Assembly (NCBI RefSeq): GCF_000186865.1
Contig: NW_008705568.1
Coordinates: forward strand, 831,513-895,512
Direction of reading: 5' to 3'
DNA from: Aureococcus anophagefferens
Lineage: Eukaryota; Sar; Pelagophyceae; Pelagomonadales; Pelagomonadaceae
DNA length: 64,000 nucleotides
Position 1 is the first letter of the stretch. Each line of letters begins with the position of its first letter. Shown piece by piece: positions 36,245 through 59,945 of this stretch. The notes under the pieces are model-generated. The model was given only the letters and a program-made list of their open reading frames with translations, was not told where the DNA came from and made no database searches. A program made the translations under genes and the position numbers.

Positions 36245-37654
36245 TTACCGCAGCTCCGCGCGCGCGGTCTCCTCCGTGAGCCTGAAGCGGGGCACCTTGA
36301 CCCAGGCGAGCTCCTCGTAGCCGTCGCAGTCCGGCCGCCCCGCGCCGCGGTTCGCGTGCATGGCCCGGATGCCGCGCGCGGTCAGGTCCGCGACGGACAC
36401 CGCGCCCTCCATACACCCGAAGAGCCGCGCGTTGATGAACTGCTCGCTGTGCTGCGGGTGGACCTGGAGCGCGAGGAGCCAGAGCGCCACGGAGACGTCC
36501 TCGAGCGTGCCGACGCCCGCGAGCACCTCGAGGTTCGCGTCGATGAACGCGGCGCAGTCCATGGACATGAGGTAGTGGGGCCCGATGGCGAAGGGCGGCA
36601 GCTGGCTCATGGGGTAGGTCGCCTCCGGCAGGAAGTTGCGGTGCGACGGGTCGCGCTGGGGCAGCTTCGGCTGGTTGAAGTGCGTCGCCCAGACCTGGCC
36701 CGCGTAGAACCGCGACCGCGGCAGCGCGGGCTGCTCGGCGTCGCCGCCGCGCACGGCGGCCAGAAGCTTCGGGAGGTCGACGAGCACGTCGTCGTCGACG
36801 AGCATGACGAAGGCCGCCTCGGGGAAGGTACGGTGCGCGAAGCGCGCGAACGCCTTCGTCTTGGGCACCAGGGACGTGTAGCCGTCCTCGAGGTCGAGGC
36901 CCGTCTCGGGGATGAGCAGGTCGCCGTACGTGGCCTGCTCCCGGCGGAGCCGCGCGGCCACGGCGCCGTCCGCCGCGCGCCCGACGACGAAGCGCGCCTG
37001 GACCTCGCCCGGCGGCGCGTCGGAAAACCACGTCCGCCGCATGGCGTCGCGCTGCTCCAGGGCGCCGGCGGCGCACTTGACGCCGACGACGAGGAGCGCA
37101 CCGCCCGACGGCGGCGCCGCCCAGGGGGCGAAGTCGCCGCGCGGGCGCCAGGGCGGCGCGGCCTCGTCGCCGCGCCACCATCGCCGGAGCGCCTCGTTCT
37201 GCCCGCGGTCCTCGTAGTAGAGCTCGACGAGCCGCGCGCCCTCGGCCGTCTCCTCCGCCGTCGCGACGACGGTCCAGCGCGTCGACGCCGGCGCGTCGGG
37301 CACGAGCAGCGACGCGCCCGTCGTGAAGTCGAGGAGCTCGCACGTCAGCTCGTGGGCCCCGAGCGGCAGCCGCTTCGGCAGCGGGATGCGCGTCGAGTCG
37401 AGGGAGTCGCAGCCGATGCTCGCGCCGTCCAGGTCGCAGCAGATCTGCGCCGTCGCGCCGTAGGCCGCCATCCAGCCCCGGTGGTCGTCGACCCAGAGAT
37501 CGATCTCCGGCTCGACGAGGGACAGCGTCGTGCCGCCGTCCTTGGGCACGCGGAAGCTCAGGCGGCAGTCGCCGAAGGCGTGGTCCGCCGGCGGCTGCTT
37601 CGTCCGCTGCGCCGCGGCGACGGCCGCGACGACGACGGCGCGCCCGTCGACCAT
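36245..37654 (-). CDS. GT31 beta-1,3-galactosyltransferase-like glycosyltransferase
   Basis: Predicted 469-residue glycosyltransferase. The C-terminal 270 residues show the Galactosyl_T (GT31) pattern: QRDAMRRTWF, ARFVVG, the YGDLLIPE ... DLEDGYTSLVPKTKAF stretch, the metal-binding DDDVLVD, FYAGQVW, ATYPMSQLPPFAIGPHYLMS and GTLEDVSVALW. The N-terminal 190 residues are a beta-rich, Asp-rich region without known family. The leader (VDGRAVVVAAVAAAQ) is hydrophobic enough for a signal anchor, as expected for a Golgi enzyme. The start at 37654 is divergent from the cyclic-nucleotide-binding gene, with a 192-bp shared promoter. Donor and acceptor sugars cannot be inferred. Confidence 0.82.
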   Translation of the reverse strand: MVDGRAVVVAAVAAAQRTKQPPADHAFGDCRLSFRVPKDGGTTLSLVEPEIDLWVDDHRGWMAAYGATAQICCDLDGASIGCDSLDSTRIPLPKRLPLGAHELTCELLDFTTGASLLVPDAPASTRWTVVATAEETAEGARLVELYYEDRGQNEALRRWWRGDEAAPPWRPRGDFAPWAAPPSGGALLVVGVKCAAGALEQRDAMRRTWFSDAPPGEVQARFVVGRAADGAVAARLRREQATYGDLLIPETGLDLEDGYTSLVPKTKAFARFAHRTFPEAAFVMLVDDDVLVDLPKLLAAVRGGDAEQPALPRSRFYAGQVWATHFNQPKLPQRDPSHRNFLPEATYPMSQLPPFAIGPHYLMSMDCAAFIDANLEVLAGVGTLEDVSVALWLLALQVHPQHSEQFINARLFGCMEGAVSVADLTARGIRAMHANRGAGRPDCDGYEELAWVKVPRFRLTEETARAELR

Positions 37655-37846
37655 GGTGGGCGCGGCGGCGCCGACAAGCTTCACGAAAGCGCTAATTGAA
37701 GTTGCAAATCTTGCTTCGTTCGGAGAGCGTCTCCGCGTTGGAGGCTGCCCGCAGGCGCCGTCGCAGGCGCGCCGCCGCCCCGTCGCAGTGGACCCGCGCG
37801 CCGACGACCGTCGTTCCACCGCTCCGCGGCGGCGTCGCGCGCCGCC

Positions 37847-40278
37847 ATGGCCGGCGAGCCGCGCCCGAAGACGGTCGTCGGCGGCGAGGGCGCGTTCCTG
37901 CGGCGCGCGGACGCCGACAGCCACCTCGTGGGCGACGACGACGACATCAACACCTTCGGCAGCGGCGAGTCCGGCGAGTCCCACTTCATCGAGCACACCT
38001 TCGAGAGCCCGGCGATGCAGCGCGTCGCCGCGGCCGTGCGGCGGCGGCCGTCCTTCGACGGCACGGCGCGCTACACGAGCGACCGCGTCTACCCCGGCTG
38101 GATCCTGGATCATCGCCACTTCGAGGAGGCGAAGCACCTCGTCAAGGAGAACCGGCTGCGCGACGCGCTGCAGAACTCGCCCAAGGAGCGCACGGACGAG
38201 GACGTCGAGGTGCTGACGATGTTCTTGATGGCCGTGTGGCCGACGACGCTGCGGCTGGGCGAGGCGCGCGTCAACGAGATCGCGCGCTGCGCGAACCTGC
38301 GGCGGTTCCACCAGGGCCAGTACATCGTCACGGAGGGCGAGGTGGGCCTCACGTTCTACATCATCGTCTCCGGCGCCGCGGACGTCGAGAAGCACGGCGA
38401 GTACCTCGCGACGCTCAAGATGGGCCGCTCCTTCGGCGAGGCGTCGCTGGGCGCCGGCGCGCCGCCGCGGAACGCGTCCTGCATCGCGTCTTCGGCGACG
38501 ACGGAGTTGTTGGAGCTGCGGAAGACGGACTACGACAAGATCATGAAGTCGTACCAGGACGCGGAGCAGCGCCGCGCGTTCCGGTGCCTCAAGTCCGTGC
38601 CCATGTTCCGCAACTGGGCCAAGAGCCGCCTGACGCGCCTGTGCGGGCTCGTGCGGCGCGTCGACTTCAAGGCCGGGGCCCTCATCATCAAGCAGAACGA
38701 CCCGCCGGACAACGTCTACTTCGTGCTCGAGGGCGCCGTCGCGGTCGTGAAGACGATCGAGATCCGCACGTTCAACCGCTGGCCCAGCGGCAAGGACGGC
38801 GGCCACGAGACCGTGGCGCGCTGCGCCCACAAGCTCGTGCCCTTGGTGGAGCTCGGCCCGGGGTCCTGCTTCGGCGAGCGGGGCATCTTGTACGGCGAGC
38901 TGCGCAAGGCGACGGTGACCGCGGCGACGGACGTGACGCTTCTAGCGCTCGACAAGGTCGAGTTCGAGAGCCTGCTCCAGCGCACCCACGCCCAGGCGGG
39001 CAAGGGCTCGTCCGCGCCCCACAGCGAGCACCGCCACCACCTCACGGACGACGAGATCGCGGCCGCGCTCGCGTCCGTCCCCGCGTGGCATTCAAATCTT
39101 CGACCCGACGTCAATGTGCGCGTATGCGACAACTTCGACGCAAGCTCTTCGGCCGTGCTTCGAAAACTCGACGAGAGCAATCGATTCGTCCAAAAATCAG
39201 CCGAATCGACGTCGATGTGACCGAGCGAGAGAATTCTGAAGCTTGGTCAGAACCACCCAAACCAGTGGTGGAATTCCACGCAGGTCCGTCCACGGCGAGG
39301 CGCACCCGGAGCCGCGCGCGCTCGTCGGCCAGGGCCGGTCCTCGGCGAAGCGGTCGAACCAGACGGCGGCGGACATCGCCAAGCTCATGCCTGTGCCGAA
39401 TTCAACCACTGGTTTGGGTGGTCCTGACCAAACTTGAGAATTCTCTAGCTCGGTCAAATCGAAGTCGATTCGGCTGATTTTTGGACGAATCGATCGCTCT
39501 CATCGAGTTCTCGAAGTACAGCCGAAGAGATTGCGTCGAAACTGTCGCATATGCGCACATTGAAGTCGGGTTGAAGATTTGAATTCGGCACAGGCTCACG
39601 CAGCACGACGACGACACGTCGACGAACGCGGAGACGACGTCGACGGCCGTCGCGGAGCCGTACCTCGACCACAAGGCGGACCTCGACCGGCGCCTCGCGC
39701 TCTTCCGCGCGGAGTCCGAGCGCGCGGCGGGCGCCGCGGAGGCGGCGCGGCTGCGGCGGTTGCGCCGGCGGCCGCGGCCCGCGCGGCCCCGGAGTAGCCG
39801 CGGGTGGTCCTCGCGGGGCCTCCACGACGCCGAGGCGCCGGCCGTCGTCGCGCGGCGGTGCCTCCGGACGCGCGCGATGTCGAGCCACGCGCCCGTCGCG
39901 CGGCCCGCGCTGCCGGCGCTCGCCGAGTTCGCGCTGACGAGGCCCTCGGGCGGGTCCGCGGAGCTCCTGGGGCGGCCCGTGACGGCGCCCGCGCGCGGGT
40001 CAGCGGCCGCGGGCCGGTCCTGCGACATGCGGTTCCGCGAGTTCCCGCGGAAGCCGCCGCCCTGGGTCGACCCGCGGACGCGGCCGCCGGGCGTGCCGCC
40101 GGGCGGCGCGGCGCTCCTCGACATGATCATCCTCCAGGGCGCGGAGCAGGGCGGCGCGCTCGCGCGGCCGTCCAGCTCCCTGTCGCCGCTCGCGGAGGCG
40201 GGCCACTCCGTCTCCGGCACGGCCCACCCGTCGGTCTTCACAAACGGCGGCGCGACGACCATACCCACGCGCGCGTGA
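37847..40278 (+). CDS. Protein with two cyclic-nucleotide-binding domains, three exons
   Basis: Predicted 669-residue protein; exons 37847-39072, 39284-39382, 39594-40278. CNBD1 is about residues 150-245 (FHQGQYIVTEGEVGLTFYII ... the phosphate-binding cassette FGEASLGAGAPPRNAS). CNBD2 is about residues 255-380 (GALIIKQNDPPDNVYFVLEG ... CFGERGILYGELRKATV). CNBD1 keeps the Glu and Arg that bind cyclic nucleotide in PKA-R-type cassettes; CNBD2 is more divergent. No kinase, channel or GEF domain follows; the last 230 residues are Arg/Pro-rich. Both introns are introners with a 99-nt exon between them. It may be a cAMP/cGMP-responsive scaffold, for example of flagellar or PKA-regulatory type (inference). 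Frame closes exactly only with both elements removed. Confidence 0.85.
39081..39283 (+). mobile_element. Introner element B3 (intron 39073-39283)
   Basis: A 203-bp insertion with the perfect 8-bp duplication GTCCGTCC at 39073-39080 and 39284-39291. Ends are CCGCGTGGCATTC and GAATTCCACGCAG. GT-AG intron of 211 nt. The inner right block (GGTCAGAACCACCCAAACCA) pairs as an inverted copy with the left block of B4. Confidence 0.93.
39391..39593 (+). mobile_element. Introner element B4, opposite orientation to B3 (intron 39383-39593)
   Basis: A 203-bp insertion with duplications GCTCATGC (39383-39390) and GCTCACGC (39594-39601). Ends are CTGTGCCGAATTC and GAATTCGGCACAG, a perfect inverted repeat. 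GC-AG intron of 211 nt (AA|GCTCATGC). The element reads in the reverse direction compared with B3, only 100 bp upstream. Confidence 0.93.
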
Positions 40279-40365: not shown

Positions 40366-43300
40366 CTAGTAGGCCACGGTGATGGTCTGGCCCGGCGCGA
40401 CGCCCGGCGGCACCTTGACGACGAGCATCTGGCCCGTCGCGTTGACGCGGACCTGCATGCGCTCGCCGGGCGCGACGTTCGGCGGCACCTGGATCATCAT
40501 CCGCCGCGCGCCGGCCGCCGGCGGCGCGGCCTGCTGGCGCGGGGGCTGCTGCGGCGCGCTCTGGCTGTAGGCGCCGCGCATGTGCTCCACGCCCTCCTGC
40601 CGGAACTTGATGAGGTACTCGGGGTAGGCCTGCGCGTCGTGGTACGTGACGAAGATGGACGGGTCCGCGACGTTGTTCACCGTCGTGTCGTAGAGGTTGA
40701 GGCCCTCGCGGACGTCGGGCGTCAGCGCGTCCTTGACGCCCTTGCAGTACTCGCCGACGGTGACGCGCACGTAGAACATGTGCTGGACGCCGTTCTGGTC
40801 CGGGACCGCGTAGGTCTTGTTCGTGGAGTAGGACGCGTCGCGCGCGAAGTAGACGCCCTTGCCGTAGAACGTCGCGTTCTTGCCGCAGAAGGAGCGGTTG
40901 AAGCCCTGCTGGACGATCTTCTCCAGCACCTCGATGTTCGTGCCGTGCCAGAGGTGGCGCTCGAAGCGCGCCGCGCGCCGGCTCTCGTCCTTCTCGCGGA
41001 CGAAGACCGACTCGCGCTTCACGGCGAAGGACTGCCACGCGCCCACGTTCTGGATGCGCTCGACGGCGACGATGGTGAACCGCGACGCGTCGAGCGTGCT
41101 CAGAAAGTTCTTGACGACGTTGGCCTTCTCCTCGCCGTCGCGCAGCGGGAAGTACTGCGCGACGAGGGGATCCTTGACCTCCTCCCAGCTGTCCGGCGGC
41201 TTGAGCCCGCCGGACCCGCCGAGCGCGTCCTGGAGCTTCGAGAGCTGCTCCACGGACGGCACGTCCGTGCACTCCAGCGGGAACCAGCCCGTGGACAGCG
41301 AGACGCCGTCCTGGACGTAGGCCCGGTCCGCGGCCTCGTCGCCGCCGTGCAGCACGACGGAGCCGTAGGCCCAGCCGTCGGGGCGCGTCTTCGAGACCTG
41401 GAGCACGGAGCCCGCGCGGAGCAACAGCGCGTCCTCGCCCAGGAGCTCCTCGGGCCGCCGGTCCGTGTTCGCGCCCGGCGCCGCCGGGTGGACCTGGGCA
41501 GGAAAAGAGTGATTAAAGTTCGCTTCAACCTGAGTGTTCCGCGAGCGCGCGTTCCGGCAAAAGCATCCATGCTTCGAGACCGTTCCGAGAGATGATCGCT
41601 CGTCCAAAAATGAGCCGAAACGAGTGGAAAACGACCCGAGAAAGGAGCCTTTGAAGTTGGGAATTTCGCACTCTTGTCCTGCCCGGGGGTGCACCTTGGC
41701 CGAGCCCGTCCGCTTCGGCGCCGCGCCGGCCGCCGCCGGCGGCGGCGGCGCGGCCGCGACGTCGCGGAGCACGTCGCGCTCGTAGTTCGTGCGCTCGTTG
41801 ACCTGCTTCATGGTCGCGACGTCGACCTTGTAGGGCCCGCCCGTCGCGACGACCTTGGACGCGCCGGCGTCGCCGTACGCCCGCTCGAGCGCCGCGGCGA
41901 CGCCGTCGTCGTAGGCGACCCAGTGGGGCGACTTGACCTTCGCCGGGTCGTGGCTCCCGAGCCTCGCCTGCTCCTCGCGCCAGTACCAGCGCGCGGCCGC
42001 CGGCGCGCCCGCGACGGCCGCGACGACGGCGCCGCCGGCCTCGGCCTCGTACTTGGCGTTCGCGTCGTCGCCGGCGACGTCGACGGACACGGCCTCGGGG
42101 ACGTAGTCCTGGACGGCGACCTTGAAGCCGACGACGGAGTCCTTGAAGTCCTGGAGCTCCGCCTCGAGCGACGCCAGGTTGCCCTTGAGCGAGTCGAGCG
42201 ACTTGACGACCTGGCGCCGGTAGTAGAAGAAGACGGCGCCCAGCGCGGCGACGATGATCGCGACGACGAGCAGGATGAGGCCGACGTCGACCGCGGCGCC
42301 GCCCGAGCTCGACGACGGCGGCGCGCAGACCATGCCGCTGCACGCGTAGCCGTCGCCGCAGGCCCAGTCGTCGTCGCAGTAGTCCGCGAAGGTGCCGTCG
42401 CCCTCGCCCCAGAGCGGCGCGTAGCGGAGCGCGAAGCCGGAGTAGGGCGCGGGGTTGTTCTTGTCGCTCGCGAACTTCACGGCGACGCGGACGGGGTTCG
42501 CGGCGTCGGCCGCGTAGCCGGGGAACTCGAGGTCGAAGGCCGCCCCCACGTCGTAGAGGCCGACGGCGAAGTCGTCCGCGGAGATGGTCGCGAGGAGCGT
42601 CGCGCTCCCGAGCTCGACGCTCTCCGCGACGAGGTCCTCGGGGGCGACGTCGCGGGGCGCCGACCCGTCCTGGAGCCAGATCTCGACGCGGTCCGTCGTC
42701 GACGCGAGCGCGTAGGTCGCGTCCTCGCCCTCGAGGTCGAAGGCATCGAAGCGGAGCCGGACGCCGGCGGCGGAGAACGCGCCGCGGGGCATGACGGGGA
42801 AGGACCAGAGGCACGTCGTCGACGGCGGGTAGTCCGCGCCCGCGCCGCTCAGGACGAGCCCCGCGTAGCGCGGCGACGCGTAGCCGCCGCTCGCGGACGT
42901 CGTGACGAGGTCGTAGCCGACGTCGACGATCTCGCCGACGCAGTGGTCGAAGTCGCAGTTCTCGCCGTAGTAGCCCGGAGCGCACTCGCACGCCCAGTCG
43001 TCGCGGAAGCAGCCGCTCGCGGCGCCCAGGCTCTCGCACCGCGTCTCGGTCGTGGACAGCTCGTTTCCGCCGCCGAAGACCCAGGCGCAGGTGCCGCCGT
43101 TTTTGCAGTCGACGGCGTCGTTGCAGTCGCCCTCGTCGGCGACGAACGACACGTCGATGTCCACGAGGGACCAGCCTATCTCGAAGCCGCCGTCGGCCGC
43201 GAGGCCGTCGCCGTCGACGGCGGACCCGACGAGGCCGTCGCTCTCGAAGGCGACGAAGACGCTGCCCTTGACCAGCAGGCGCGAGGGGCCCGTCGCGCCC

Positions 43301-45871
43301 GTCGCGGAGTACTCGTAGTCGTCGAAGGTCCGCGTGGAGCCCGCCGCGTAGCCCTCGGGGATGCCCGCCTTGTAGACGCGGACGAAGTCGAAGCCGTCCT
43401 CGAGGGCCAGGGACGTGAAGGCGAGGTCGACGTGGCTGTAGGCCGCCGGGAGCTGGATCCGCCAGCCGCACGTCGACCAGGCCGCGTACGTCTGCTCGCC
43501 CGGCGCGGTCGCCCGCAGCGTGCCGCTGAACTCGCCGTCGGGGTTCGCCACGACGACGCCGTTGCAGCGCGGCTCGTCGCAGGCCGCGCCGCTCCAGCCG
43601 GCGTCGCAGACGCACGCGCACGACGCCGTGCCGTAGACGCCCGCGAGCGACTCGCCGTGCGACCCGCAGCCGCACAGGTCCGAGGGGCCGACGGCCGTCG
43701 CCGTCACGGAGAACCCGACGGCGTCGAACTTGCCGATGGCGTGCTCGCTGTAGGCGTCCGTCGCCCAGCGGAGGTAGAGCCCGACGCCGCGCACCGTCGC
43801 CGCGGAGAACGTCGGCGTCGAGACGAGCCCGGCGAGCTCGCCGGCGACCGCCCGCTGGAAGTCGTCGCTCGCGTCGTAGTCGCCGCAGAATTTCAGGGTC
43901 GGGATCGACGCGCCGTGGCGCCCCGTCCAGCGCGCGACGAGGAAGCCCGCGTGGTCGTAGGCCTCCAGGACGTCGTTCGGCGCCTCGGCCGCCAAGAAAT
44001 CGACGGAGAGCTCGAGGCAGCCCTCGTCGCTCTCGAGGGCCCAGACGCAGGTCGCGTTCGAGCTGTAGGCCGACGTGCCCGTGTTGCCGCTCGCGAAGAC
44101 GGCGGACCCGGAGACGGTCGTATGCGTCAGCGGCGCGCACTTCTCGGAATCGTCCGCGATCTGCTCCTCGATCTCGACGCGCTCGCGCATGCCCTTGATG
44201 CCCACGGACTCCGTGCCCAGCGCGCCCAGGAGGCTCGTGTTGTCGACCTTGGAGCGGTAGTAGGCCACGGCGTCGTCGAGCGGGTTGTTCGCCAGGGCCT
44301 TTTGGTAGTAGAGGAACGTCGCCTGGTCCCTGGTCATCGTTTCGAGCGAGAACGCGAGCTGCTCCGCGACCGACAGGTATTCGAAGGCCGCGGTGCGGCC
44401 CGCGACGTCGTCGCGCACGTGGAGGTCGTCGTTGGGGACGCCGTCGACCCAGTGGGGCGTCGCGCCCGTGACGTCCGTGAGGTAGACGAAGTCGTCGACG
44501 TACGCCATGTAGTCCGCGCCCGCGTCCCACAAGCCGCTGAGCTGGTTGTTGGTGTAGTCGTAGGTCGCCTGGGCGAACTTCTCGACGATGGTCGCGACGA
44601 GCGCCGGGTCCGACGCGAGGAACGCGTCGGAGACGCCGAGCACGTTGCCCGTGTCGTAGCCCCACTGCGCGACCGTCGCGGCGTCGACCATCGCCCGGCC
44701 CGCGTCGCCCGTCGCGCCTGGGCAGGAACAGGGTGATTCAACGTCGCTTCAACGTGAGCGTTCCGCTTCCAGAAAAGCATCCGCGCTTCGAGACCGTTCC
44801 GAGAGATGGTCGCTCGTCCAAAAGTCAGCCGAAACGAGTGGGGAACGGCCGAGATAGGAGCCTTTGAAGTTGGGAATTTCGCACGCTTTTCCCGCCCTGC
44901 GTCGCGCCGTGGGGGTTGTCGAGGAGGTAGGCCATGGTGTTGCCCCAGCAGGCCGCGCCGTCGATGGTCCCCGCGTCCCAGGCCGCGACGATGGCCGCCG
45001 GCGACCGCGTCTCCAGCGTCAGGTCCGACACGTCGATGCCCATCTGCGACATCGCCGCCAGGAGGATGTAGTGCGTCGTCGACACGTAGGGCGTCCAGAG
45101 GATCTTGCCCCGGAGGTTCACGGGCCCCGTGAGGTCGGACCGCGTGACCAGCGCCTGCGCCGCGCCCTTGAGGTGGAGCACGCTCACGGCGCTCAGCGCC
45201 GCGCGCCGCGCGGCCGCGGCGGCGAACGGCGTCGAGCCGAGCATCGCGACGTCGAGGTCGCCGTTCTCGAGGTGGGCGATGCTCCGCCCGCCGGACGTCT
45301 GGCGGTAGAAGGCCCAGCAGGCCGTCGACGAGTCGAGCCACTTGGACATGACCGCCGCCGTGTAGGGGTTCGCCTCGTCGAACGTGCCGACCTTGATCGT
45401 CCGGGAGCAGCCGACCGTCGGCGACGGCGTCGGCGCGGGCGTCGGCGCGGCGACGGCGGCGACGGCCTCGCAGGTCAGGTGGATGTCCTCGTAGTGGTTG
45501 CAGTTCTCGGAGCCCCAGGCGCTCGCGGCGCAGAGGGACAGCGACGGCTCCGCGCCGGCGCAGGCGACGTCGTCCATGTAGATGGGCACGGTGTTGGACA
45601 CGGCCTCGAACTCGGGGGCGTAGTCGTCGTAGCTCACGGCGGCCGTGCCGAAGAGCTCGTCGCAGGCGACGTCCGCGTTCCGCTCGTAGTAGTTCCAGTA
45701 GTCGTCGCAGACCGTGCCCCAGGTCGTCGACGACGGCGGGTTCCGCACCTCGAGGCGGCCCGTCTGGGACACGCTGCCGTCCATGACGGCGCCGTACTGG
45801 TCCACGAGCCGCATCTCGAAGGCCGCGCGCGCCGCCGCGAGGCCGAGCGCGGCGGCGAGAGCATTCCTCAT
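40366..45871 (-). CDS. Predicted receptor: SRCR-TauA-CUB/EGF-TM-WWE-SH3-PARP fusion
   Basis: Predicted 1,704-residue type I membrane protein; exons 45871-44908, 44717-41695, 41493-40366. Order: signal peptide; SRCR domain (about 20-125: GRLEVRNP, WGTVCDDYW, SLSLCAASAWG); TauA-like sulfonate-binding protein (145-400: IKVGTF, NGDLDVAMLGSTPFA, GKILWTPYVSTTHYILLAA); CUB (514-665), EGF-like (CVCDAGWSGAACD), CUB, EGF-like (CECAPGYYGENCD), CUB-like; membrane span about 1131-1155 (VGLILLVVAIIVAALGAVFFYY); WWE domain (1232-1305: RWYWREEQARLG ... ATMKQVNERTNYERD); SH3-like domain (1348-1407, ending STGWFPLECT); PARP catalytic domain (1467-1625: HGT, YGKGVYFARDASYS, AYPEYLIKF); tail with VPPNVAPG / VPPGVAPG repeats. 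The catalytic Glu position is Ile (PSIFVTY), so mono-ADP-ribosylation is predicted. Start at the first ATG before the leader. Confidence 0.85.
41494..41686 (-). mobile_element. Introner element A4, open in frame (intron 41494-41694)
   Basis: A 193-bp insertion with duplications GGGTGGAC (41486-41493) and GGGTGCAC (41687-41694), one mismatch. Ends in gene sense are CCGGGCAGGACAAG and CTTTTCCTGCCCAG. GT-AG intron AAG|GTGCAC ... CCCAG|GTCCAC, 201 nt, divisible by three and free of stops in the host frame, so retention would add 67 residues between the WWE and SH3-like domains. Confidence 0.9.
44718..44899 (-). mobile_element. Introner element A5 (intron 44718-44907)
   Basis: A 182-bp insertion with the perfect duplication CGTCGCGC at 44710-44717 and 44900-44907. 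GC-AG intron CACG|GCGCGACG ... CCCAG|GCG, 190 nt, splitting the TauA-like domain and restoring PHGATGDAGRA. Its two ends match each other less well (GGGCGGGAAAAG against GGGCAGGAACAG). Confidence 0.9.
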
Positions 45872-58218: not shown

Positions 58219-58845
58219 TCATCCGTACTTACGCACCGCGGGCTGCTGGCGCTTGAACGTGTAGCCGCCCGCCTGCGTGCCCGTGACGTCGCGGATGATG
58301 GCCTCGACGAGGTCCGCCTCCGACGCGTCCGCGGTCCCCAGCACCCGCAGCGCGTGGATGAAGTGCTCGACGTCGTCGCCGCCGTAGCGCTTGTCGCCGC
58401 AGATGTCGACGCCGTCGATGCCCTCGGCGAAGAAGGCCGCGGCGATCTTCTCCGTCGCGTGGACGCGGAGGTACTTCCGGAGGTCGCGCGCGGTCCAGCG
58501 CGGCGCCTCGGCGCGCAGGGCCCGCTTGAGCGCCGCCTCGCAGCCCGCGTCCGTGGCCAGCACTTTGGACGCGCGGAGCACCTGCTGGAGCCGCGCGCCG
58601 TCGCCGTCGCCGTCCGCGGTGTCGGGATGGCACCGGAAGATCTCCGCCTTCGCGACCCGTTTCACGTGGCGCCGGCGCTTGTCGCTGGACCAGAATCGGA
58701 AGCGCCGCGAGTCCACGCCGAGCACACTGAACGGACTTTCCTCTTCGACGGCGGCGGCGGCGAGCGGCGAACAGCGGCGTTTTGGCGGTTGCGGGCTCTG
58801 GAAGGCCGCCGCCGCGGCGGCGAGCAGGAAAATGGGTGGTCTCAT
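58219..58845 (-). CDS. Plastid-targeted J-domain-like protein
   Basis: Predicted 208-residue protein. The leader RPPIFLLAAAAAAFQSPQPP is a signal peptide ending in A-F, with a following Ser/Pro/Lys-rich stretch; an aromatic residue at this site is the hallmark of bipartite plastid targeting in algae with red secondary plastids. Residues about 35-100 resemble a J domain: FSVLGVDS, a basic helix II (RRHVKRVAKAEIFRCHPDTA) with the essential HPD tripeptide, then a helix (QQVLRASKVLATD). The C-terminal half is unassigned. A J-domain cochaperone of the stromal Hsp70 is the best guess. Start at 58845; upstream frame lacks support. Confidence 0.66.
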   Translation of the reverse strand: MRPPIFLLAAAAAAFQSPQPPKRRCSPLAAAAVEEESPFSVLGVDSRRFRFWSSDKRRRHVKRVAKAEIFRCHPDTADGDGDGARLQQVLRASKVLATDAGCEAALKRALRAEAPRWTARDLRKYLRVHATEKIAAAFFAEGIDGVDICGDKRYGGDDVEHFIHALRVLGTADASEADLVEAIIRDVTGTQAGGYTFKRQQPAVRKYG

Positions 58846-59078
58846 GGGCGCGCGATGACTGGATGGAGCTCTTGTGGTTTTGCGACCACTCGGCCGCCGT
58901 GGATCCTTTGCTAGCGGCCACTGCGGATGCCGAAGGTCGGAGCACGCTCCGGGGCGGTGAGGCGCGGAGATCAAAAAGCGTCAAGGCCGACCTCGAAGAT
59001 CTTCATGATGCCGTGCGACCTCGACCGGAGTTGGCGGCTAGACCCGCCGGCCTCGTCGCGCGCGCGCCGCGCAAGACC

Positions 59079-59945
59079 ATGGCCGAGCTCGCCCAGCCGC
59101 CGGACCACTTCGCCTGCCCGCTGACCTTCGAGCTCATGGTGGACCCCGTCGTGGACCCGACGAGCGGCACGACCTACGAGAAGGCCGCCATCGTCGAGTG
59201 GCTCACGAAGAACGCGACGTCGCCCGTGAGCGGCGCGGCGCTCAGGCCGTCGCAGCTCGTGCCGAACCTCGCGCTTCGCAACGCCATCGACGAGTGGCGC
59301 GAGGCGCACGGCGTGCCCGCGCCGCCGCGGGTCGTGGAAGCGACGGCGGCGGCGGAGGCCGTCGAGGTCGTCGACGTCGACGCGATCGAGGGATTGCCGG
59401 AGGCGGAGGCGACGCCCATCGACCTCACGGCGCCGGACGCCATCGACCTCACGTCGCCGCCGCGGCCCGCGCGCGCCGCGGCCGCCGGGAGCGGCGGCGG
59501 CGGCGGAAGCGGCGGCCGCTGGGAGTTCCGCGGCGACGACGGCGCCTGGCAGCCCTTCGACGCCGACGCGAGCGAGGCCGTCGAGCAGGCCTTTGGCTCG
59601 AACCCGCGCGGCGCCGTCGGCTACCGCGCGCGCGGCAACGAGTACCACGTCGACTTTTCCGACATGACGCAGACCAACACCGCGTCGTCCGTGGAGCGGC
59701 GCATCCGCCGCGTCGACCCGTCGGCGGCGGCCAGCGCGCCGGTCTGGGAGTTCGAGGACGGCCCGTCGGGCTCGGGCGCGTGGCGCCGCTTCGACGCGGA
59801 CGGCGCGGCGCAGGCCGAGTCCGCGCGCGGCGGCCAGTTCTGCTTCGGCCGCGGCTCCGGCACCTACTTCGTCGACACGGGCGCCATGACCCAGACGAAC
59901 GTCGAGACGTCCGTGTCGCGCCGCATCCGCCGCCGCCTCGCGTAA
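59079..59945 (+). CDS. U-box E3 ligase with two WWE domains
   Basis: Predicted 288-residue protein. The U-box is residues about 10-80 (FACPLTFELMVDPVVDPTSG ... YEKAAIVEWLTKNATSPVSG ... LVPNLALRNAI). A linker rich in Asp/Ile (VDVDAIEGLPEAEATPIDLT) contains two IDLT repeats that look like SUMO-interaction motifs. Two WWE domains follow, about 145-205 (RWEFRGDDGAWQPFDADAS ... YHVDFSDMTQTN) and 220-285 (VWEFEDGP ... YFVDTGAMTQTN). WWE domains bind (iso-)ADP-ribose in RNF146-type ligases and in PARPs, so this protein may ubiquitinate ADP-ribosylated targets (inference). Start at 59079 because the upstream frame is antisense to the J-domain gene and lacks motifs. Confidence 0.84.
   Translation: MAELAQPPDHFACPLTFELMVDPVVDPTSGTTYEKAAIVEWLTKNATSPVSGAALRPSQLVPNLALRNAIDEWREAHGVPAPPRVVEATAAAEAVEVVDVDAIEGLPEAEATPIDLTAPDAIDLTSPPRPARAAAAGSGGGGGSGGRWEFRGDDGAWQPFDADASEAVEQAFGSNPRGAVGYRARGNEYHVDFSDMTQTNTASSVERRIRRVDPSAAASAPVWEFEDGPSGSGAWRRFDADGAAQAESARGGQFCFGRGSGTYFVDTGAMTQTNVETSVSRRIRRRLA

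Follow-up and report, generated by a model that had tools for sequence, protein, structure and literature searches.

A predicted single-pass receptor with a TauA-type sensor and a PARP catalytic domain in Aureococcus anophagefferens

The window analysed here is a stretch of 64,000 nucleotides from the pelagophyte Aureococcus anophagefferens (contig NW_008705568.1, positions 831,513 to 895,512). On its minus strand, from position 45871 to 40366, three exons form a spliced frame of 1,712 codons. In the predicted protein, a TauA-type Venus-flytrap domain, together with SRCR, CUB and EGF-like modules, stands on one side of a single transmembrane helix, and a WWE domain with a PARP15-like catalytic domain stands on the other. 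A sensor fold, one transmembrane segment and an enzyme domain are thus combined in one chain, which is the layout of single-pass receptor enzymes as a working type. The reading as a whole, that this is a cell-surface receptor in which closure on a sulfonate-type ligand would rearrange the helix and regulate mono-ADP-ribosylation, with the WWE domain as reader, is given a probability of about 0.72.

Most studies of ADP-ribosylation treat it as a reaction to intracellular events such as DNA damage, stress and infection. No receptor of the TauA (or other sensor)-transmembrane-PARP kind was found in the open-access literature searched (titles and abstract openings, among the matches listed), in agreement with the initial annotation, which knew of no described receptor with this layout, and exact phrases such as 'transmembrane PARP' returned no paper there. 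As a working type the protein is a receptor enzyme; its output, ADP-ribosylation from a receptor, appears to be new as far as the literature was searched. The layout is not confined to this gene, which encodes one of three TauA-PARP receptors found in the genome, within a larger pelagophyte and diatom class that has interchangeable sensors. The finding is thus larger than the first reading, and we propose receptor ADP-ribosyltransferases as a class.

Gene structure and domain composition

The features of the gene are as follows (stop codon counted in; P-numbers are public proteins, L-numbers loci of the same assembly).

44896..45871, minus strand: exon 1, with the start codon, a short hydrophobic N-terminus, the SRCR domain and the first half of the TauA-like domain; introner-free P0095 continues into exon 2
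45467..45781, minus strand: SRCR domain, residues 31-135 (Pfam PF00530, 7.5e-19); also before the TauA start in P0095 and P0107
44254..45406, minus strand: TauA-like periplasmic-binding domain, residues about 156-480, across intron 1 (profile matches; model of paralogue L019)
44718..44895, minus strand: intron 1, a 178-nucleotide introner, GC-AG, with GCGCGACG repeats at both flanks; P0095 is short by exactly the four added residues
41683..44717, minus strand: exon 2, with the second half of the TauA-like domain, CUB/EGF-like stalk, transmembrane helix, juxtamembrane segment and WWE domain
42364..44136, minus strand: Cys-rich stalk with CUB (3e-8, two stretches) and EGF-like modules, residues about 520-1110
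42220..42285, minus strand: predicted single transmembrane helix, residues about 1137-1158 (hydrophobicity)
42094..42216, minus strand: juxtamembrane segment, FKDSVVG motif at residues 1183-1189 (motif conservation; helix in the paralogue model)
41764..41991, minus strand: WWE domain, residues about 1235-1310 (PF02825, 1.8e-7 over residues 1255-1310)
41494..41682, minus strand: intron 2, a 189-nucleotide introner, GC-AG, open in frame; P0010 is short by exactly VHPR here
40366..41493, minus strand: exon 3, with the SH3-like segment, PARP catalytic domain, C-terminal tail and stop
41260..41457, minus strand: SH3-like segment (doubtful), residues about 1350-1415 (SH3_2 below cut-off, in the paralogue only)
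40600..41193, minus strand: PARP catalytic domain, residues about 1438-1635, triad H1520-Y1552-I1617 (PF00644, PARP15 match)
40369..40503, minus strand: C-terminal tail with two VPP.VAPG repeats (sequence)

Both introns are introner copies. According to the available text of PMC9860276, introners of Aureococcus sp. bring both splice sites with them and each add 12 nucleotides to the transcript, and the splice chosen for this gene gives such an addition at each of its two introners. The single spliced frame of the initial annotation therefore stands, and its 1,704 codons become 1,712 because two introners add four codons each. The GCGCGACG repeats around intron 1 are likely a target-site duplication. 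Since intron 2 is open in frame, exons 2 and 3 also lie within one open frame of 1,460 codons. When the spliced frame is divided into 17 blocks of 100 codons, every block has a third-position GC of 0.97-1.00; with the strong domain matches, this rules out a chance open frame.

A profile search of the whole frame found the TauA, WWE and PARP folds on which the earlier interpretation depended, and Pfam also bore out SRCR and CUB. The PARP domain matches PF00644 over residues 1458-1635 (9.1e-24) and PARP15 in the PDB (3.6e-42), and it is closest to PARP15/14. The TauA-like domain matches NMT1 over residues 192-380 (4e-4; 20.8 bits against a cut-off of 20.5), and exon 1 alone matches the NCBIfam family taurine_ABC_bnd (2.5e-25) with 89.5 bits, which is well below the equivalog cut-off of 304 bits. 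In the model of L019, Escherichia coli TauA is the best structural match (TM-score 0.90 to the target; 6ssy, E 1.2e-22). Overall, a Class II substrate-binding-protein fold nearest to TauA is clear in the window protein. The one membrane span also held up, as a single strong hydrophobic helix at residues 1137-1155 (mean Kyte-Doolittle 3.1), and Cys makes up 3.14% of residues 20-1135 versus 0.54% of residues 1156-1712. Two modules proved weaker than claimed: the EGF-like call consists of sub-threshold Pfam matches and C.C..G[WY].G..C patterns judged by eye, and the SH3-like segment is doubtful. Pfam gave it no match up to E 1 in the window protein; for the paralogue, SH3_2 reaches E 0.0018, under its cut-off, and the structure lists are dominated by the PARP domain. 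The signal peptide was judged by eye from the short hydrophobic N-terminus. Alignments to P0010-P0012, P0014 and P0019/P0020 extend over the C-terminal VPP.VAPG tail.

Relatives in pelagophytes and diatoms

A search for the same architecture among stramenopiles, which the initial annotation had suggested, gave many relatives in diatoms and pelagophytes. One search with L019 gave 91 matches and another with the cytosolic part of an ANF-type protein from Seminavis gave 425, of which the best 120 were listed; both scored only about 8,000 candidates sharing most words. The sample comprised 132 non-animal PARP rows from these lists, the window protein and L019. Exactly one internal hydrophobic helix precedes the PARP domain in 107 of the 132 rows and, where at least 600 residues precede that domain, in 80 of 90. 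The C-terminal flank of the helix is the more positive one in 106 of the 107 one-helix rows. A motif F[RKQ][DEN]S[VI][VILM]G, at a median of 26 residues past the helix, is present in 59/132 rows and in 0/19 rows taken as animal (P0073-P0091); this juxtamembrane segment is helical in the paralogue model.

The ectodomains differ. Single-pass WWE-PARP proteins with TauA, ANF/LIVBP, PstS-like, Bmp, Cache or leucine-rich repeat (LRR) ectodomains are found in pelagophytes, diatoms and marine metagenomes. Pfam identified ANF_receptor in P0016, P0042, P0046, P0057, P0069 and P0166, PBP_like_2 in P0051 and P0059, dCache/sCache in P0055 and P0163, Bmp in P0149, and LRR in P0065; P0062 has LRR with HRM just under its cut-off, and the Pfam scan of P0045 and P0064 gave no sensor family. 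Named sources include Cylindrotheca closterium, Nitzschia inconspicua, Seminavis robusta, Stauroneis constricta and A. anophagefferens, and two members (TauA-type P0023 and ANF-type P0166) are labelled as transcriptome sequences.

A maximum-likelihood tree was constructed from the PARP domain (85 rows extracted, two under 150 residues dropped, 83 used), with sensor labels taken from precomputed Pfam and our own matches, only partly rescanned. The TauA label changes nine times on this tree, at least six of them forced by well-supported branches, and the ANF label 16 times, at least ten of them forced. Labels are nevertheless clustered beyond chance, with 20 changes over all groups versus a shuffled mean of 35.1. 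The tree needs repeated swaps of the sensor, and its supported mixed sets include P0009 (TauA) with P0025 (ANF) and P0008 (TauA) with P0019/P0020 (ANF), each at 100/100. The receptor rows stand apart from the animal rows with moderate support (86/65); L001, L009 and several animal rows lie on long branches.

One relative, P0021, has a TauA-CUB-EGF ectodomain, one transmembrane segment and a tail without PARP, which at residues about 1050-1200 looks TIR-like by eye. TIR is another NAD+-linked fold; this identity is not claimed for the tail, which has no Pfam TIR match at E up to 1.

Ligand pocket, catalytic site and proposed mechanism

The binding pocket was compared across 17 rows, namely the window protein, L019-L022 and 12 public proteins, some of them near-identical to each other. 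Eleven positions described in the available text on E. coli TauA (PMC6906117) were looked up. Eight match the letter given in the paper (S60, G61, G79, E106, T132, W176, L204 and D205) and were used; the mismatch at 55, 84 and 109 would be explained if the paper prints mature numbering there, and Gln30, whose side chain reaches the sulfonate, precedes the stretch of the E. coli chain covered by the alignment. S60, G61, G79 and T132 are conserved in all 17 rows and W176 in 16, and the window protein retains all five. E106 is replaced by Gln in 14 rows and kept as Glu in three (L021, L022 and P0007); D205 is retained in none, with Asn in ten. The window protein has Q239 and N350 at these two positions. 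In the part of PMC6906117 available, changing E106 to Ala abolished taurine binding, while D205, not found in SsuA, is credited with taurine selectivity, and its change to Ala weakens binding without abolishing it.

By sequence, then, the anion (sulfonate) site appears to be kept and the ammonium site altered. With the amine-holding carboxylates changed and the sulfonate cradle intact, the likelier ligand is a sulfonate other than taurine, and the pocket may point to sulfonates that lack an amine or carry a different second group. The ligand named in the initial annotation, taurine or another sulfonate, is accordingly narrowed: taurine is disfavoured, and a sulfonate-type ligand for the window receptor is put forward tentatively, as somewhat less than an even bet. 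In a search for a bacterial donor of the TauA domain, no bacterial name was seen among 16 matches (three of them named) from 7,997 scored candidates sharing most words.

In the PARP domain, the triad is H-Y-I in the window protein, L019 and L020, as the initial annotation had noted in describing the catalytic Glu as replaced by Ile. Of the 152 aligned rows, with those from animals counted, 110 have HYI, and in most of the rest the third place is taken by Leu, Met, Val or a gap. This triad is a mono-ADP-ribosyltransferase signature and suggests that activity.

The proposed mechanism may be described as follows. The flytrap would lie outside the cell, and the ligand on which it closes would be a small anion, most likely a sulfonate other than taurine, for example dihydroxypropanesulfonate, isethionate or sulfolactate. 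Closure would be relayed through the stalk, the helix and the conserved juxtamembrane helix, probably by rearrangement of a dimer, and would start or stop the mono-ADP-ribosylation of proteins in the cytosol. A likely role of the WWE domain would be to bind the ADP-ribose product or hold substrates. In diatoms and pelagophytes the same cytosolic engine would serve other sensors, much as cytosolic enzymes are found under different ectodomains in other receptor enzymes. A wider hypothesis, for which we see about an even chance, is that ochrophyte receptor ADP-ribosyltransferases form a separate modular class, in which prokaryote-type sensors on a conserved juxtamembrane-WWE-PARP engine convert outside sulfonates and amino-acid-like, phosphate-like or Cache ligands into NAD+-dependent marking of proteins inside, read out partly by WWE ubiquitin ligases such as one encoded about 13 kb away.

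If this is true, a PARP as the inner domain of a receptor would make ADP-ribosylation a direct transmembrane signal. Diatoms and pelagophytes, which are major marine primary producers, could then sense dissolved small molecules, possibly organosulfonates exchanged by algae and bacteria, using binding folds that are otherwise characteristic of importers in bacteria. The class is open to testing through its sensor swaps, which combine one engine with several predicted ligand types.

Receptor guanylyl cyclases (ANF receptors) and receptor kinases consist of an extracellular sensor, one helix and a cytosolic enzyme. The window protein has the same predicted layout, and some of its relatives carry the ANF_receptor fold; its predicted output, in contrast, is ADP-ribosyl transfer and not cyclic GMP or phosphate, from an enzyme without sequence kinship to theirs, and no cyclase was among the ten Pfam families matched by the spliced protein at E up to 1. 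With PARP/ARTD proteins of the PARP10-15 type it shares the catalytic domain, the conserved H and Y and a third residue other than Glu. PARP15/PARP14/PARP10 (ARTD7/8/10) differ in that 18 of the 19 animal-type rows lack any 19-residue stretch of mean Kyte-Doolittle at least 1.9 (the one internal stretch, in coral P0078, has 2.36), whereas in the window protein the enzyme forms the inner end of a chain that crosses the membrane once and has its small-molecule-binding fold on the predicted outer side. With E. coli TauA/SsuA it shares the Class II fold (in the paralogue model) and the five pocket residues; unlike in E. coli TauA, the domain is part of a membrane protein and carries the Gln and Asn changes.

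The statement that PARPs are normally soluble needs qualification. The available text of PMC4245714 describes membrane-spanning PARPs, namely PARP16 (C-terminal span, unlike the window protein), a sponge PARP12-like protein (N-terminal), a rice Clade 2 PARP (C-terminal) and Rhizaria Clade 3 PARPs. These share a PARP domain and a membrane span with the window protein; in that text no flytrap ectodomain is described for them, and H_lectin is named for Rhizaria Clade 3. A 2010 survey, in the part available, reported no identifiable PARP gene in A. anophagefferens, Phaeodactylum tricornutum or Thalassiosira pseudonana (PMC2964712), and at least two PARPs are given for T. oceanica (PMC4245714). Public A. 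anophagefferens proteins, P0001 and others, now carry PARP domains.

Several observations weigh against the receptor reading, and those on the gene model would favour two genes or an assembly chimera, that is, a secreted protein with SRCR, TauA and CUB domains next to a separate WWE-PARP enzyme. The NCBI models of the orthologue cut the gene at introner 1 into P0105, which ends in intron read-through, and P0012, which starts at Met335; at junction 2, P0011 and P0012 are each short of residues on one flank, which looks like the choice of another splice site. This cut, however, lies inside the TauA domain. P0095 is 95% identical to the window protein over residues 1-403, SRCR through TauA domain; beyond the junction its sequence no longer matches, and it appears to be a partial or mis-framed model from there on. 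P0010 is 96% identical over 396-1712, and both are taken as introner-free alleles or close orthologues. The window protein is also identical to P0012 over residues 335-480 and 95% identical to P0011 over 500-1712. L019 is an intronless single open frame of 1,478 codons running from TauA to PARP (Pfam scanned), L020 carries these parts as well, split over two frames that overlap, and a TauA match, a transmembrane segment and a PARP domain occur together in 16 of 75 proteins scanned. Because introner-free relatives span both junctions and the L019 frame is intronless, two separate genes appear very unlikely and this alternative is already largely refuted; the single gene of the initial annotation stands.

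The remaining difficulties concern the receptor function and the class. The structure models are of L019 rather than the window protein; the rows were selected for their similarity to receptor PARPs and are no census. On a crude scale, 21 of the 132 rows have no internal helix and four have two or three, and truncated or soluble members are possible. Diatom P0022 and P0023 have no NMT1/TauA family in Pfam at E 0.001, their TauA-type region resting on phmmer/BLAST matches to the window domain (about 33% identity), and the window protein and P0010 form their own deep PARP branch apart from L019/L020. The ratio of nonsynonymous to synonymous substitution between L019 and L020 is 0.61 overall (TauA 0.50, WWE 0.42, PARP 0.77, SH3-like 1.06), a weak or absent sign of constraint (none for the SH3-like segment) in a genome of near-fixed third-position GC. 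Gln and Asn are conservative replacements, and weak taurine binding may persist; taurine is lowered as a candidate, with both amine carboxylates changed. One could thus regard the protein as a membrane-anchored PARP without ligand gating, whose ectodomain serves adhesion, capture or trafficking, or faces an endomembrane lumen, and which is controlled from inside by WWE, NAD+ or substrates. In favour are the common use of SRCR, CUB and EGF-like modules in adhesion, the replacement of the carboxylates that bind taurine, and the existence of a membrane PARP in PARP16 (PMC4245714, in the part available). Yet one and the same engine has repeatedly received a different small-molecule-binding fold as its sensor (TauA, ANF/LIVBP, PstS-like, Bmp, Cache), which fits ligand sensing, and the anion cradle is retained in 17/17 rows; this alternative is therefore considered unlikely. 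Inactive PARP family members, PARP13 and RCD1, exist, and with Ile in the third triad place the domain could be a silent or nearly silent NAD+/ADP-ribose-binding scaffold (pseudo-ADP-ribosyltransferase). That seems improbable, since H and Y are intact and HYI, so frequent among the aligned rows, is the pattern of active PARP10-type mono-ADP-ribosyltransferases. RCD1 is listed among inactive members in the available text of PMC4245714.

Other loci and neighbouring genes

The assembly contains six TauA matches, of which three are the PARP receptors (window, L019 and L020). Two further loci combine a TauA-type domain and Ephrin-receptor-like repeats with a hydrophobic, apparently multi-span tail, and by sequence they appear to be a second receptor type with a TauA-type sensor:

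G000 C4:360000-369900: L021, TauA-type domain and Ephrin-receptor-like repeats
G000 C8:1207500-1217400: L022, TauA-type domain and Ephrin-receptor-like repeats, with a TRP-channel-like match (1.8e-7)

The sixth, L018, lies within L024 and its sequence was read in part; no soluble bacterial-type TauA is among the other five. PARP matches at E 0.001, counted exon by exon, number 12, with ten above the Pfam cut-off; those on C41 and C86 score equal, and others lie on C5, C11, C12, C10 and C17. By reading rather than scanning, L001 is a WGR-PARP1-like frame with Glu in the third triad place and L009 has a macrodomain-plus-PARP look. None of the eight ANF_receptor matches in the assembly (frames unread) is near a PARP match, and on the shared contig C11 the two are more than 400 kb apart.

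Eight public proteins (P0001, P0002, P0004, P0005, P0011, P0012, P0098 and P0105) are named 'platelet-activating factor acetyltransferase' in NCBI, a name that their listed domains do not support. Two neighbouring frames were seen in the window:

36245..38941, minus strand: frame with a Galactosyl_T domain (1.4e-27)
58731..59945, plus strand: frame of 404 codons with a U-box (5.3e-20) and two tandem WWE domains (2.2e-25)

The latter, about 13 kb from the receptor gene, is a predicted ubiquitin ligase and could be a reader of ADP-ribose.
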